From assembly GCF_000209165.1 (NCBI RefSeq), contig NC_009044.1, positions 1,426,001 through 1,490,000 of the forward strand: DNA of 64,000 nucleotides, written 5' to 3'. Below the pieces are notes generated by a model. It searched no databases. It saw only the letters and a program-made list of their open reading frames with translations, and was not told where the DNA came from. Below, piece after piece: positions 27,606 to 33,640 of the stretch; within the stretch, counting starts at the first letter, position 1, and each line of letters begins with the position of its first letter. Made by a program: the position numbers and the translations under genes. The DNA is from Scheffersomyces stipitis CBS 6054. Its lineage: Eukaryota; Ascomycota; Pichiomycetes; Serinales; Debaryomycetaceae.

Positions 27606-27610
27606 TAGTA
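27606..27610. repeat. Target-site duplication, left copy
   Basis: TAGTA directly before the left LTR, matched by TAGTA at 33636-33640 directly after the right LTR. Five bases is the standard duplication for Ty1/copia insertion. If the LTR is taken as one base shorter, the duplication reads TAGTAT; the two readings cannot be told apart. Confidence 0.85.
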
Positions 27611-27877
27611 TAATGGGAAGTAAACGTATATACAGGTCTAGAATTTCTATATGTACGGCTGCAATTCCCTTGGATAAAATTTATTCAAATTTTCAGTATA
27701 AAAGAAGAGTTAATATATAAATTATATATTGGAAACAGTCGGAAGCAACAGGAGCTTATATACCCTTGATATACCCCTGTTTTAGTATGGAATTTGTAAC
27801 ATTGCGCCATACTCTGTTTAACAATGAATAAATTCCTTTCTTTCCAAGGAAAGGACGATCCTGCATACTTTCCATCA
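27611..27877 (-). repeat. 3' LTR
   Basis: 267 bp; on the element strand it begins TGATGGAAAG and ends CTTCCCATTA. It matches the 5' LTR throughout, by eye. It lies 111 bp upstream of the CCDC124-type gene and reads in the same direction, so an LTR promoter could drive that gene. Confidence 0.95.
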
Positions 27878-27902: not shown

Positions 27903-30900
27903 TTAAGTCTTAGAGGTTTCTAATTCTCTAATGGGCTTTAACCTCTCATCTCCTCTTCCAAGTATGTAGTTCCTGAAAGGTTCGAAGCTCGTATGGCCTA
28001 ATGGTTTGGTGAAGAAGTCAGCAATATTTTTAACGGATTTAATGTAGCGTAGAATTTTATTTCCCTTTACATCTTCCATCGTCGGAAGGATCTCCCTGAT
28101 TGATTTTAGGGTAACATCAATATATCTGCTCTTATGCGTAGTGTTCTGATTATAACACTTGGCAATGACAGCTTGATTGTCTTCCCATATTGTTACTTTC
28201 TTGATTGGAAAACCTAGTTCCTTCATCATTCTTTTCATATTAACCGTTTCATCGATTGCAACTCCTAATGCAATTAGTTCACAACTGGCTGACGATTTTG
28301 TGATAATCTTCTGTCGTTTTGTTGCCCAACTAACGAGATGACCATTTAAGAATATTGCATTCCCTGTAATCAGTCTCTTGTCGATTTCGGATGGAGCGAA
28401 TGAAGCATCAGAGTAAACAACAATTGTAAATTCGTCCTCTGGTTCGGGACGATCATAGACTAAGTTTAAATCCATGTTGTCTTTTAGGTAGCGCAAACAG
28501 TATATCAACTTCTGTAGATCATTGACGCTTGGTTTGTTTGCTTTTGCTCCTAGTTTGTTTGTGGCGTATGAAATATCGGGTCTGGTATTTCTGCATGCCC
28601 ATAGTAGCAGCCCAACTCCTTTTTGATAGAGCGTTCTTTCCTTTGCTCCTAGTAGCGCACCAACGTCTTGGTACTCAGAGTCTGGAATGTCGATGTCTTC
28701 TTCTGCCAGTTTCGGAGGGGTGTACCGTTTCTTGTCTTTAATCATGGGTATTAATTTTCCGTATTTGCCCATTATATTAAAGTCTTTGAGAAGGTTAGTA
28801 ATAAACTGCTGTTGTGAAATTGTATATCCAGTTTCGGTCTTCTCAAACTTGATCCCTAAGTATTCACCTAATTTACTTAGGTATTTGAGGTTAAAATGGG
28901 TCTCTAATCCATTTCTGAAACTTTTGAGTAACTTGTCCGAGGATGATACCATTATTAGATCATCGACGTATATAGCAACAATGATAATATCGTGCTTAGT
29001 TCTCTTATAAAATAAACCTTCAACAACGCTTGAGCTTGTAAATTCTAATTTCTCGATTGTGTCTTTGAGACATATATACCATTCGTAACCGCTTTGTTTA
29101 GCACCATATACTGCTTTCTTTAATTTCCAACAATAGTCTTCCTGTAATTCATAACCTTTTGGAGGATATACATACAATGGATGTTCCTCAGGTAACAGTG
29201 CATTAAGGTATGCCGACTCAATGTCTAGTTGGTGAATAGCGTAATTTTTGGTGACGGCAATGGATATTAGTATTCGGATTGTTGTAAGATCGACGACTGG
29301 GGATGATATTCTCGTCGGGTCAAAATCTCTTCCAGTAACTTGTAGAAATCCACGAACCACGCATCGACTTTTGTGGTCGTTTCCTTTGAAAGTTTCTTTG
29401 ATGGTGTGCACCCATCTAGTAGTTATTGGTTTGACTCCTTTTGGAATCTTAACAATCTCGTAAGCGTTCAATTCTTTGAACTTTGTGATTTCTCGATCCA
29501 TGGACTTTTTCCATTCAGGATCTTTATAATCAATTCTATCTATGACAGCAAATAGATTATTATTACCTTTACTATCGGTAACTTCAGTTTCGATATTTTG
29601 TTCGCCCTTTATCATATCATTCAAGTATGACTCCCCTAATGGGCAATTCCGCGGATCTGCATTGTTAATTAAGCTAAGCAATGCATTTATCTGTTGTGGA
29701 CTGGAATCGAAATCTGGTGTCTTCTTCTTTCTTTTTATTATTTCGGAGGTGATCGTTTTTGCTATTTGTGAGCTTTGTGCATCCTTGTCCAATAATGATG
29801 CTTTGGTACCTTTCCTCTTACTAATTTTGCCCTTTCCGTGTATTTCAGGTGGGACTTTATTCCATGATTGAGTCTTTCGCGTATCTAGGTTAGACCAATT
29901 TTTAGACAGCTCAATTTGTTTGTCTAGTCTTGACTTGGTATGTGATCTTGTATTTTGTGCTGGTGTGGTTGATAAGTCCACATTTGTTTCCCCTGATAAC
30001 TCCCCTGAGATTCTATCCTCCTGGGAGGCTAACTGTGAAGTTAACTCTTCAGAATTTGTCGTAGTTGAGTTTAAGTTATGATCTTCACTCATTTTCGTTC
30101 TGGTTTCTTCTATAGCAGTTTTAATGGGGTCAGCAGCGTAATCACGATTGTTATCAACAATTTTACTTTTAGTCTTATGGTCCCTGATCGTTCTAGTGGC
30201 TGAAAGTGGAGTTGTTTTTACTCCCCCTAATCGTGGTGAGCGCTTAATGTGCTTTCCGTCTACCGAATTACCTTCTTGATCGGTAGGAAATGGTAACGTG
30301 TCAGAAGTGAGTTCTTCTATACGCCGTTTGTGTTGAGTGGCTACTTCGGGATGTCTTGTAGAAAGACTTTCGATCGTCATCTGCGAAGAAGGTGTATTGC
30401 TCAAAGCCTCAGGATTTTGAGGAGATGGCGTCGATAAATTGGTGTCTCCAATGTTGGCTGTCTGGACAGATGTGTCCCCGTTTTTAAGTAAAGTAGCATC
30501 AAAGATAACCTCTTTATCAGCGATATCGATATGATCAGCAAGTTTGTCTTCAAGTGCATCGAGTACTGTGGCATTATATTGAGCGCTGTCTCTCTGTAAC
30601 AAATCAAGTGATTGAAAATAATTCTCGATAAATTGGCGTGAATTGAGGAGTTTTGCATTACAATTCGTTATAATTGGGAAATGTTCTGCTTGGACGAGTA
30701 TTCGGTAGCTATAGTTATCTGTGGCGAAGCCGACGATAGAACCGAAGAAAGCGTGTGGTTCAGTCTTAAGTAAGGGACGGCCATACTTCTCGTATTCTTC
30801 TTTCGAAGATGCTTTTATCACAACGTCCATACCGAATGGGACAATAGGACGGTGATATGCGTCTTTATAGTTAAAAAAGACGGCGGCAGGTGTGCGATAT

Positions 30901-32078
30901 TGGAGCAGCTTTCGGGGAGTATTGTTCTTGACGAATGCCGAGTATTCCACGATTTCTTTGAAGAGAGTCAATACTTCATCGTGGCGATCGGGGAAACTTA
31001 GTACAACTTTCCGTATATTGGCAAGAATAATGCGATTATGTGATTCTGCCAATCCATTTAGCTCTGGAGAATACGGTGGAATTTGATCGCGTTCGATTCC
31101 AAGTTTAAGTAGTTGTTCGTCAGAAGGAAGTTCTATTGCATTATCCGACCGGAAATATGAAATCGATTCACCAGGAAATTTATGATTCCATAAATTAAGA
31201 GTATTTAATACTGTGTCTGCAAGAGACTTGTGATCAGTATATAATAGTTTGGTGTAACCGGTGTAATGATCAATAACGGAAGTGATAAATATTTTTGCAG
31301 TAGACTTATTGTATCTCCTAAATTGGAAAGGTCCGATAGTATCGCAACTCACACGTTCAAGTCTGCGCACAGCGGCGCGTTGAGTGTGATGATTGTGTGA
31401 TGATTGTCTGACAGTAATACTGTTGCAGGTTATACAATTCTTCACAAGATTCTTACTTGACTCGGTGTCGTCAACCGTGATGTGACCTTGCACTTCTAGG
31501 TTCAATAGGTTGGTAAGGGCCATATGATTGTACATTAGGTGATGATATACCCAATCATGTGGTCCATTAATATTGAGTTCAAGTTGGGGGATATTGCCAA
31601 CATCGATATGCTTCTCGTTGAAGAAACGGACTGTGTTCTTCGAGAACAGTACATCCTTATCATTGGCAATATAAAGTCCATCATTTAGTGAACCTAAATA
31701 GTGTCTTACTTTGTTGTGAACAAGGTAGAAACCGTCGTCCTCAAAATGGAGGAAATACTTTTGCAATGCGAGTTGGCTGACGGAAACAAGTATAACCGGT
31801 ATGTTGGGTATATACACAGCGTCTAGCTTAATGTGAAAGGGACTTGCCTCGAGAGTGAAAAATCCTTTCGCAAGAGCATATGCCTGATCTCCATTTGCAG
31901 TATTATAAACTTTCTCACGATCAGTAAGATTGTATCTGATATCAGATAAATATGTTAACAGATTAACAACGGTCCGAGTAGCGCCAGAGTCATAGCAGAT
32001 CCTAGCACGTAACTTCGATTTATGTATTGGTGCGTCATCAACAAAGACTCGGAGATGGTTATTGAGACCACCGGAGCT
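27903..32078 (-). CDS. pol: Retrotransposon Pol (protease-integrase-RT-RNase H)
   Basis: 1391 codons open from just after the gag stop to TAA at 27903-27905, in the same frame as gag. It has no ATG near its start, so it is presumably made as a Gag-Pol fusion by reading through that stop. In order: aspartic protease with DSGA (31980-31991); integrase with a zinc-binding H...H...C-x2-C region (about 31420-31560), D in VSCDTIGPF, D in YFRSDNAIE and E in SPELNGLAES (DDE triad); a variable hydrophilic linker; reverse transcriptase with YVDD (28959-28970); and RNase H with YSDASF, SSASCELIAL and WEDNQAV. No stop interrupts it. All catalytic residues I can check are present. Confidence 0.93.
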   Translation of the reverse strand, partial: SSGGLNNHLRVFVDDAPIHKSKLRARICYDSGATRTVVNLLTYLSDIRYNLTDREKVYNTANGDQAYALAKGFFTLEASPFHIKLDAVYIPNIPVILVSVSQLALQKYFLHFEDDGFYLVHNKVRHYLGSLNDGLYIANDKDVLFSKNTVRFFNEKHIDVGNIPQLELNINGPHDWVYHHLMYNHMALTNLLNLEVQGHITVDDTESSKNLVKNCITCNSITVRQSSHNHHTQRAAVRRLERVSCDTIGPFQFRRYNKSTAKIFITSVIDHYTGYTKLLYTDHKSLADTVLNTLNLWNHKFPGESISYFRSDNAIELPSDEQLLKLGIERDQIPPYSPELNGLAESHNRIILANIRKVVLSFPDRHDEVLTLFKEIVEYSAFVKNNTPRKLLQYRTPAAVFFNYKDAYHRPIVPFGMDVVIKASSKEEYEKYGRPLLKTEPHAFFGSIVGFATDNYSYRILVQAEHFPIITNCNAKLLNSRQFIENYFQSLDLLQRDSAQYNATVLDALEDKLADHIDIADKEVIFDATLLKNGDTSVQTANIGDTNLSTPSPQNPEALSNTPSSQMTIESLSTRHPEVATQHKRRIEELTSDTLPFPTDQEGNSVDGKHIKRSPRLGGVKTTPLSATRTIRDHKTKSKIVDNNRDYAADPIKTAIEETRTKMSEDHNLNSTTTNSEELTSQLASQEDRISGELSGETNVDLSTTPAQNTRSHTKSRLDKQIELSKNWSNLDTRKTQSWNKVPPEIHGKGKISKRKGTKASLLDKDAQSSQIAKTITSEIIKRKKKTPDFDSSPQQINALLSLINNADPRNCPLGESYLNDMIKGEQNIETEVTDSKGNNNLFAVIDRIDYKDPEWKKSMDREITKFKELNAYEIVKIPKGVKPITTRWVHTIKETFKGNDHKSRCVVRGFLQVTGRDFDPTRISSPVVDLTTIRILISIAVTKNYAIHQLDIESAYLNALLPEEHPLYVYPPKGYELQEDYCWKLKKAVYGAKQSGYEWYICLKDTIEKLEFTSSSVVEGLFYKRTKHDIIIVAIYVDDLIMVSSSDKLLKSFRNGLETHFNLKYLSKLGEYLGIKFEKTETGYTISQQQFITNLLKDFNIMGKYGKLIPMIKDKKRYTPPKLAEEDIDIPDSEYQDVGALLGAKERTLYQKGVGLLLWACRNTRPDISYATNKLGAKANKPSVNDLQKLIYCLRYLKDNMDLNLVYDRPEPEDEFTIVVYSDASFAPSEIDKRLITGNAIFLNGHLVSWATKRQKIITKSSASCELIALGVAIDETVNMKRMMKELGFPIKKVTIWEDNQAVIAKCYNQNTTHKSRYIDVTLKSIREILPTMEDVKGNKILRYIKSVKNIADFFTKPLGHTSFEPFRNYILGRGDERLKPIRELETSKT

Positions 32079-32081
32079 TTA
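32048..32081 (-). promoter_or_regulatory. Gag stop with downstream stem-loop, possible readthrough signal
   Basis: The gag stop is UAA at 32079-32081. After six bases (AGCUCC) comes GGUGGU (32067-32072), a seven-base loop CUCAAUA, then ACCAUC (32054-32059), which pairs with it over six base pairs (one G-U). CUC in the loop could pair with GAG at 32048-32050, giving a small pseudoknot. Gag and pol are in the same frame, so readthrough, not frameshifting, is needed. The layout is seen in the sequence; function is inferred by analogy with Tca2 and gammaretroviruses. Confidence 0.5.
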
Positions 32082-33323
32082 GTTGTGATTAACATTGTCC
32101 GTTTGTCTTCTGTGCGATTTCTGGTTATTCTCCAACAGCAGTTTATTTTGAGAATAATTATTATAGTTACTCCTGTCTTTTCTGTGTTTGGAATTCGTTC
32201 TTGATTTAGAGGAATCAGATAAAACTTTACCAGAGAAACCAGGTGTACTGATCATTTTCTTTTGGAAAGTGTTGGGGGTAGGGTAATGAAAATTCTCCTT
32301 GGTCATAAATTCTTTATAATAGAAATTGGCCGTAGCGGCAGCTATTATACAATTGCCATCGTGTCTTTGGTTACAGTAGTGACTAATGGTGCCATATAGG
32401 TCGGAAGGAATACCGTCAATAAATTGAATTATACGGTCATAATCATGCGTGTTTTTGCCTCTCAATTCTGAGACATAGTCTTTACACAGTATATCGATTC
32501 GGTAGCGTCGTTGCACTTCCTCAAGTATAGACATCGTTTTAGCATCATCTGCATGCTCCGATGTGTACTCAATTAGATCTTCAAGGGTGACAGTATGATC
32601 TCGGGTAGCAGCAAGAATACTCAAAGTATTATTGCAATAAGGTGCAATGAGATCATCCTTCCAGCAATCGTAGTAGTATTTAAGTTCATTACCATGGAGT
32701 CCAGTTCTGGATTCGAAACTGTTCCAGTCTACTTTGAAGTTTGCCTTAGACAAAGCTTTATAGTCTGGGTCACTGTTTAGTTCCTGAAGAGCCCTGGACC
32801 AGAGTTCAACGCTGCTATCATTGAGCTTGGGTAATTTTCTCCAAGATTCATGAAAGCGTTTCTGAGACTTTCGAATCGTATCGTTAGTTCTTTCAAATAA
32901 ATTGAATGTTTTTTCAGCAGAATGTTTACTTGATTTAAACGATGGAGAGTGTTCAATTTTAGGTGGAGCACTGATGTTTACACTTAAGTCATCATCAGCG
33001 AGCACCGAACTAGACTCAATACTAGATTGAATAAGATTAATATCACTATTAGTACTCGTAATGGTCGAAGAATCGTCAGTATTTCTCGAAACTCCTTTTC
33101 TGTTACCACTTTTCTCGGCAGAAATAAGCGTTAGGATATCATGAATTTGGTTTTGAAGCAGTAGAAATTTAGCCTCAAATTCGTCTGATTGTTTCTCAAG
33201 CAATTGATTTGCTTGTTCCCTAATCGCTTCTGCGAGAAGACTTGCAGTGATGGGACTGAATGTCTGTTCTTCTGGCAGTTCCGATCTACCAGTCGACAGA
33301 GCATTTGTGGAAAAATTGGACAT
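32079..33323 (-). CDS. gag: Retrotransposon Gag
   Basis: 414-residue capsid-like protein from the ATG at 33323, 35 bp after the primer site. It is hydrophilic and serine-rich at the N-terminus, has a central helical region (about 130-330) with aromatic and charged residues, and ends in a basic tail rich in Ser, Asn, Lys and Arg (about 360-414). No CCHC zinc knuckle is present, so RNA binding presumably depends on the basic tail, as in Ty1. It ends at a single UAA, after which the frame continues into pol. Identified by position between the 5' LTR and pol rather than by sequence match. Confidence 0.88.
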   Translation of the reverse strand: MSNFSTNALSTGRSELPEEQTFSPITASLLAEAIREQANQLLEKQSDEFEAKFLLLQNQIHDILTLISAEKSGNRKGVSRNTDDSSTITSTNSDINLIQSSIESSSVLADDDLSVNISAPPKIEHSPSFKSSKHSAEKTFNLFERTNDTIRKSQKRFHESWRKLPKLNDSSVELWSRALQELNSDPDYKALSKANFKVDWNSFESRTGLHGNELKYYYDCWKDDLIAPYCNNTLSILAATRDHTVTLEDLIEYTSEHADDAKTMSILEEVQRRYRIDILCKDYVSELRGKNTHDYDRIIQFIDGIPSDLYGTISHYCNQRHDGNCIIAAATANFYYKEFMTKENFHYPTPNTFQKKMISTPGFSGKVLSDSSKSRTNSKHRKDRSNYNNYSQNKLLLENNQKSHRRQTDNVNHN

Positions 33324-33357
33324 TTGAGATTTATTGATTGGATTCGACTTGACTTTT

Positions 33358-33368
33358 GACTTCTAATC
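33358..33368 (-). other. Primer-binding site complementary to tRNA-Arg(UCU)
   Basis: Directly next to the 5' LTR the element strand reads GATTAGAAGTC. This is the complement of GACUUCUAAUC, the anticodon arm of tRNA-Arg(UCU) as I recall it from S. cerevisiae (UCU is the anticodon). The complement is internal to the tRNA, so the primer would be a 5' half-tRNA, as in Drosophila copia (initiator Met) and C. albicans Tca2 (Arg). Confidence 0.75.
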
Positions 33369-33635
33369 TAATGGGAAGTAAACGTATATACAGGTCTAGA
33401 ATTTCTATATGTACGGCTGCAATTCCCTTGGATAAAATTTATTCAAATTTTCAGTATAAAAGAAGAGTTAATATATAAATTATATATTGGAAACAGTCGG
33501 AAGCAACAGGAGCTTATATACCCTTGATATACCCCTGTTTTAGTATGGAATTTGTAACATTGCGCCATACTCTGTTTAACAATGAATAAATTCCTTTCTT
33601 TCCAAGGAAAGGACGATCCTGCATACTTTCCATCA
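33369..33635 (-). repeat. 5' LTR
   Basis: 267 bp, matching the left LTR at every base I compared. It carries the element promoter; TATATAAA-like stretches in the middle are candidates for the TATA box. Confidence 0.95.
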
Positions 33636-33640
33636 TAGTA
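33636..33640. repeat. Target-site duplication, right copy
   Basis: TAGTA directly after the right LTR, paired with 27606-27610. Confidence 0.85.

Follow-up and report, generated by a model that had tools for sequence, protein, structure and literature searches.

How is Pol produced when a stop codon stands between gag and pol? The question is raised by a retrotransposon of Scheffersomyces stipitis in which gag (414 codons) and pol (1391 open codons) share one frame with UAA alone between them (32081–32079), as the initial annotation had stated. UAA is in general the tightest stop; it ends 8 of 20 hand-picked host ORFs in the window, by which we mean the whole stretch of 64,000 nucleotides analysed (bases 1426001–1490000 of contig C4). 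Its use for readthrough is called rare in a review (PMC8310308), and if readthrough were shown here, the element would provide a natural case of the programmed kind. For Tca2 of Candida albicans, the route past the gag stop has been left open (PMC2194720, PMC7175516). In S. stipitis, 15.4 Mb are divided among eight chromosomes whose arms carry LTR families and whose centromeres carry Tps5 elements (PMC8546629); our searches covered 15.44 Mb in eight contigs.

The element lies on the minus strand. Its two 267-bp LTRs (5′ LTR, 33369–33635; 3′ LTR, 27611–27877) are identical in sequence and are accompanied by the target duplication TAGTA at 33636–33640 and 27606–27610, respectively; they start with TG and end with TA, not the usual CA. 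The primer-binding site, GATTAGAAGTCA (33357–33368), is complementary to an internal stretch of tRNA-Arg(UCU). It is followed by gag (32082–33323), in which neither a Pfam domain nor a zinc knuckle is visible, the UAA (32079–32081) and pol (27903–32078; 1391 codons plus stop). Pol carries a DSG protease motif at codons 30–32 (31983–31991) and matches RVT_2 (PF07727, E = 7.3e-75, residues 871–1114). In the integrase region, which lies 5′ of the reverse transcriptase (RT), the invariant columns include H180, H185, C215, C218, D246 and D312, which we take to be the integrase motif residues; the Pfam integrase match is weak (E = 0.14). RVT_2, an integrase region ahead of the RT, two LTRs, a primer-binding site and a 5-bp target duplication assign the element to Ty1/copia, and judged by its sequence it is a young, complete LTR retrotransposon of this type in a CTG-clade yeast.

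The stop is not peculiar to this copy. We read the junction in every copy found of three families, A (that of the window element, n = 6), B (n = 8; seven B1 and one B2) and C (n = 4; three C1 and one C2), and found a single in-frame UAA in 18 of 18. A first search of the genome scored 33 of 87 candidates, so its copy counts are to be read as ‘at least’; a search with RVT_2, in which 62 of 62 candidates were scored, again gave 6, 8 and 4 copies by frame length. Pol identity is 44% between A and B and about 29% between A and C, and gag identity between families is about 22%. Within families, gag identity is 47% for B1/B2 and 62% for C1/C2, with UAA unchanged in each. The initial annotation had named related copies lacking the stop as the sign of a mere mutation; none of the 18 lacks it, and the searches of this genome found no family A copy without it. 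The occurrence of UAA in two distantly related families of the same genome as well makes it look like a kept switch rather than damage, and by this comparison its presence goes beyond accident. Three diverged UAA families in one yeast serve as natural replicates, and the features that they have in common around the junction make up a short, testable list.

The target duplications of family A are 5 bp long and differ among all six copies. The LTR pairs are identical in five of the six; the sixth copy has a TGA within pol and keeps the gag UAA. On the evidence of these sequences, family A has been mobile recently. A solo LTR at 2657880–2658146 of contig C1 (L052) is likewise recent, since it is identical to the family A LTRs. 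In two further copia families, gag begins in the same open frame as the RT (one copy read per family), and the fused frames, of 1428 and 1532 codons in the RVT_2 listing, are in phase with the gag starts. Elements of this genome can therefore manage with a fused frame, and the UAA is a feature of the A/B/C group.

The three families also have a primer-binding site in common. GATTAGAAGTCA lies 40–45 nt 5′ of gag in 5 of 5 representatives (A, B1, B2, C1 and C2). Its complement occurs 31 times in the genome, compared to once for the reversed control, and by position 18 of these 31 occurrences are the 18 copies. Three other genomic places of the stretch were tested, of which one is a tRNA-Arg(UCU) gene and two have no tRNA call. 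The common site thus matches a fragment of tRNA-Arg(UCU). Priming by tRNA-Arg is also known for Tca2.

Two-ORF LTR families on chromosome arms have been described in S. stipitis under the names Ava, Bea and Caia, each encoding Pol and a species-specific protein, Lap, suspected by the authors to be Gag (PMC8546629). Families A, B and C have the same arm location and two ORFs, and are probably Ava, Bea and Caia, in an order that we leave unassigned. The main text on these elements does not contain the term ‘stop codon’, and we saw no description of an in-frame UAA or of a Gag-Pol switch there (PMC8546629). In the open-licence literature we found no report of UAA-separated gag and pol in a yeast, though an earlier notice may have appeared elsewhere.

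The stop is found in the contexts AAC UAA AGC (A), AAU UAA UGG (B) and CAA UAA GGU (C), at the head of a 6-nt spacer: AGCUCC in A (32073–32078 in the window element), UGGUUU in B, and GGUCAA or GGUUUA in C. The DSG motif begins at pol codon 30, 27 and 37 in A, B and C, respectively, and the first AUG of pol comes 3′ of it, at codons 182 (31535–31533), 85 and 78. The initial annotation counted 87 open codons without an ATG before the first protein-like motifs of pol. The absence of AUG holds, and extends as far as codon 182; the position of the motifs does not, as DSGA starts at codon 30 (31991) and codon 88 is merely the first GTG. For the first 36 pol codons, dN/dS is 0.29 (B1–B2) and 0.19 (C1–C2), figures drawn from few changes (5 synonymous and 6 nonsynonymous for B1–B2; 9 and 7 for C1–C2) and close to those for codons 61–850 (0.28 and 0.17). 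From these substitutions, the first segment of pol after the stop looks translated and under selection. Because it contains no AUG, a route through the stop is the simplest for ribosomes reaching the start of pol.

An in-frame gag-stop-pol arrangement with readthrough is an established kind, represented by Tca2 with its UGA, by elements of fission yeasts and by several viral classes. The likeness to Tca2 (pCal), noted in the initial annotation together with the UGA of that element, is correct (PMC2194720): both are CTG-clade Ty1/copia elements with gag and pol in one frame and one stop, the 280-bp LTRs of Tca2 are similar in size to the 267 bp seen here, and an RNA structure is possible soon after the Tca2 stop (PMC2194720, PMC7175516). 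By the same accounts, Tca2 differs in its stop, UGA versus UAA in 18 of 18 copies, and in its spacer, which is 8 nt long and purine-rich, compared to 6 nt here and not purine-rich in A and B (PMC2194720, PMC7175516). The Tca2-type combination of such a spacer with a pseudoknot is not found in our families, which have a candidate stem instead and no support for a pseudoknot. Experiments on Tca2, the nearest case studied, point in two directions: 300 nt of its junction allowed 0.3% readthrough in S. cerevisiae, a level typical of an ordinary stop, yet Pol in C. albicans followed the LTR promoter, from which the authors concluded that a non-canonical route leads past the stop (PMC2194720). As that junction was at background level in S. 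cerevisiae, a layout like that of Tca2 does not by itself argue for a local readthrough signal. By analogy with Tca2, distant cis sequences or host factors may act in A, B and C.

Other systems resemble the junction in part. In the fission-yeast LTR elements Tj1, Tosmo1-3 and Tcry1, an in-frame gag/pol stop is kept across species, and in Tj1 it is essential for transposition; these elements, in contrast to ours, belong to Ty3/gypsy, and their stop lies in a conserved stretch of 8 nt, GAA-UGA-CU, that is known as a leaky context (PMC10085805). Murine leukaemia virus likewise has an in-frame gag-pol stop, a short spacer and a downstream RNA structure, but its stop is UAG, its 8-nt spacer is purine-rich and its compact pseudoknot is backed by mutants (PMC8002223). 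When UAA replaces UAG, the viral signal still functions and the codon is read as glutamine, so UAA can work in principle (PMC8002223). Viral readthrough signals have been divided into class I (UAG-CARYYA), class II (UGA-CGG or UGA-CUA with an extended stem-loop) and class III (UAG with a G/purine-rich spacer and a structure) (PMC3542737). As these classes are set out there, the stop contexts of A, B and C match none of them, UAA-GGU of C sharing just the following G.

Could RNA structure mark the stop? A stem six bases past it, reported in the initial annotation, is present as GGUGGU (32072–32067), a loop CUCAAUA (32066–32060) and ACCAUC (32059–32054), with GAG at 32050–32048. This hairpin (32054–32072) is the minimum-energy fold of 45 nt (−8.5 kcal/mol); when 60 nt are folded, a longer, different stem wins (−14.1), and we treat the hairpin as an alternative fold. 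The pseudoknot proposed between CUC and GAG fared worse. It has only three loop pairs. Of 1787 codon positions in this retrotransposon, 70 have a comparable arrangement (a 6-bp hairpin 4–9 nt downstream with a complement to 3 nt of the loop within 20 nt), which makes the pseudoknot as described unremarkable. On its length and this chance frequency, we rejected it.

A two-part stem, GGU-N-GUC...GAC-N-ACC, is a better candidate. In all families, the 6-nt spacer is followed by GGU, 1–3 nt and GUC, and later by GAC, 2–5 nt and ACC, so arranged that GGU/ACC would form an outer helix and GUC/GAC would start an inner one. In the window element, the 5′ arms (32066–32072) are GGU (32072–32070) and GUC (32068–32066), and the 3′ arms (32029–32036) are GAC (32036–32034) and ACC (32031–32029). 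The inner helix is extended by family-specific pairs: in A by UCAAUA/UGUUGA, following a bulged U, in B1 by ACC/GGU and in C1 by UCU/AGA. Single changes in the arms of B2 and C2 preserve pairing as G-U. Arms were anchored by position; a MAFFT alignment of the junction misplaced family C. When the 41–44 nt are folded alone, A, B1, B2 and C1 adopt both helices and C2 the inner one only, with z scores versus dinucleotide shuffles of −1.98 (A), −1.03 (B1), −1.34 (B2), −2.78 (C1) and −1.48 (C2). In family C (L033, L036), a second hairpin, ACGAUU/AAUCGU, is predicted for C1 and C2 alike, ∼56–75 nt beyond the gag stop.

All five representatives have a single match to the motif GGU-N(1-3)-GUC-N(18-32)-GAC-N(1-5)-ACC, always at nucleotide +7, 6 nt past the stop, in searched spans of 4053–5508 nt (part of pol only in B2, C1 and C2). 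Synonymous shuffling keeps it at +7 in 2.1, 4.5, 1.9, 2.0 and 1.9% of cases (A, B1, B2, C1 and C2, respectively). One caveat here is that these figures overstate the case, because the motif was written post hoc, its GG and CC fall in Gly and Pro codons that are conserved at the protein level, and B1 is not independent of B2, nor C1 of C2. Tests of structure that are independent of the motif gave modest results. Compared to synonymous shuffles, fold energies of 48-nt windows from codon +3 have z scores of −1.96 (A), −1.13 (B1), −0.89 (B2), −2.31 (C1) and −0.71 (C2); values are weaker in other windows, reaching +0.25 for B2 over 60 nt from +1. A loose two-helix test is passed at 9–14% of all codon starts and by 29–44% of synonymous shuffles of the junction. 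Conserved codons at the junction are identical in 19 of 20 cases for B1–B2 and 17 of 20 for C1–C2; 54 of 751 and 142 of 694 pol windows, respectively, equal this synonymous conservation, and pol has its most conserved windows at other places, so the junction is not exceptional.

Taking these comparisons together, we think it probable that Gag-Pol is made by in-frame bypass of the UAA, mainly in the form of readthrough. Most ribosomes would terminate at the UAA and yield Gag, while a small fraction would cross it in frame to give a Gag-Pol fusion, which would be packaged and then processed by the protease that it carries. As the step past the stop we favour translational readthrough, in which a near-cognate tRNA would decode the UAA, perhaps assisted by the RNA stem that starts 6 nt past the stop, and perhaps also by distant cis signals or a host factor. 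From the sequence features we infer passage of the stop by ribosomes, a residue inserted there and some importance of the stem. We place less confidence in the stem as the cause of the bypass than in the bypass itself. A broader proposal, which we offer tentatively and regard as rather doubtful, is that a yeast copia group has retained a Gag/Pol switch of the UAA type through deep divergence, that the common stem GGU-N-GUC/GAC-N-ACC 6 nt past the stop drives it and falls outside viral readthrough classes I–III, and that the Tca2 stop may be passed with the help of a related signal.

The initial annotation held that the protease can be made only by reading through, which goes too far: our evidence counts against internal promoters, non-AUG starts and splicing but leaves each of them a small probability. 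A Pol made separately would miss the Gag part that packages it, and this counts against synthesis that does not pass the stop at all, whether from an internal promoter, from a non-AUG start or by reinitiation after Gag, a set of routes that we consider unlikely. Near-cognate codons do occur within the first 36 pol codons of each representative, but none stands at a position common to all three families. In family B, an AUG overlaps the gag stop (UAAUG; L014:5708–5763, minus strand), a layout that serves reinitiation in some viruses (PMC3542737), but its frame is not that of pol. Weak promoter activity has been found at the Tca2 junction; tagged Tca2 Pol in C. albicans, however, tracked the LTR promoter and not that of the junction (PMC2194720).

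Gag-Pol could also be translated from RNA from which an intron spanning the UAA has been spliced in some transcripts. Drosophila copia controls gag versus pol by splicing, as stated in PMC2194720, and single consensus-like sites are scattered near our junctions. In a scan with a short word list over 700 nt on each side of the stop, however, strong upstream 5′ splice-site words appeared only in B1, B2 and C2, at differing places, and a usable set of sites in 0 of 5 representatives, A, B1 and B2 having no branch-point word and C1 no 5′ word. The case against splicing is weakest in C2, where a 5′ word stands at −139 and branch-point words at +241 and +470. For that word list and distance, we reject a site set common to the families, and we hold splicing in general to be quite improbable. 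Chances are slimmer still for a ribosomal hop from the codon before the stop to an identical downstream codon. The pre-stop codon recurs in frame at pol codon 7 in A and B1, but B2 does not have this match, C2 does not have the codon-2 match of C1, and the remaining matches at codons 20–21 would skip far more; with matches not shared by B2 and C2, hopping was rejected. It is scarcely credible that decaying elements acquired the UAA as a random nonsense mutation: one of six A copies does carry a TGA within pol, but the same junction has UAA throughout the three families, LTR pairs are identical in most A copies and pol is under selection. A mutation of a single copy is rejected by the stop in all 18.

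The genome also contains remnants and isolated relatives of gag. A search for gag-like proteins gave one match, which is identical to a relic on contig C7 apart from the reading of CTG. Pol-like proteins gave 52 matches, with ≤32% identity over about one third of the query and no yeast among the names of the matches listed. Of 56 stretches of viral contigs that fit a pattern in a search with the pol profile, 0 were confirmed. The best hit of the gag profile in PDB had E = 0.88, no Pfam family was matched by more than one of seven gag sequences, and a Gag structure predicted by AlphaFold from two sequences had a mean pLDDT of only 38.9 and was left unused. The relic on contig C7 (∼635082–636583; L007, L044) consists of a diverged LTR and a gag remnant (gag 62% identical); it departs from the family sequence just upstream of the UAA site and has an earlier TAA of its own. 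Contig C8 contains a lone gag-like ORF of 389 codons (L045:1501–2670; match at 677757–678905), 33% identical to the window gag; it is free of in-frame stops, and the RVT_2 listing of the genome has no match near it. It is possibly a domesticated gag or a well-kept relic.
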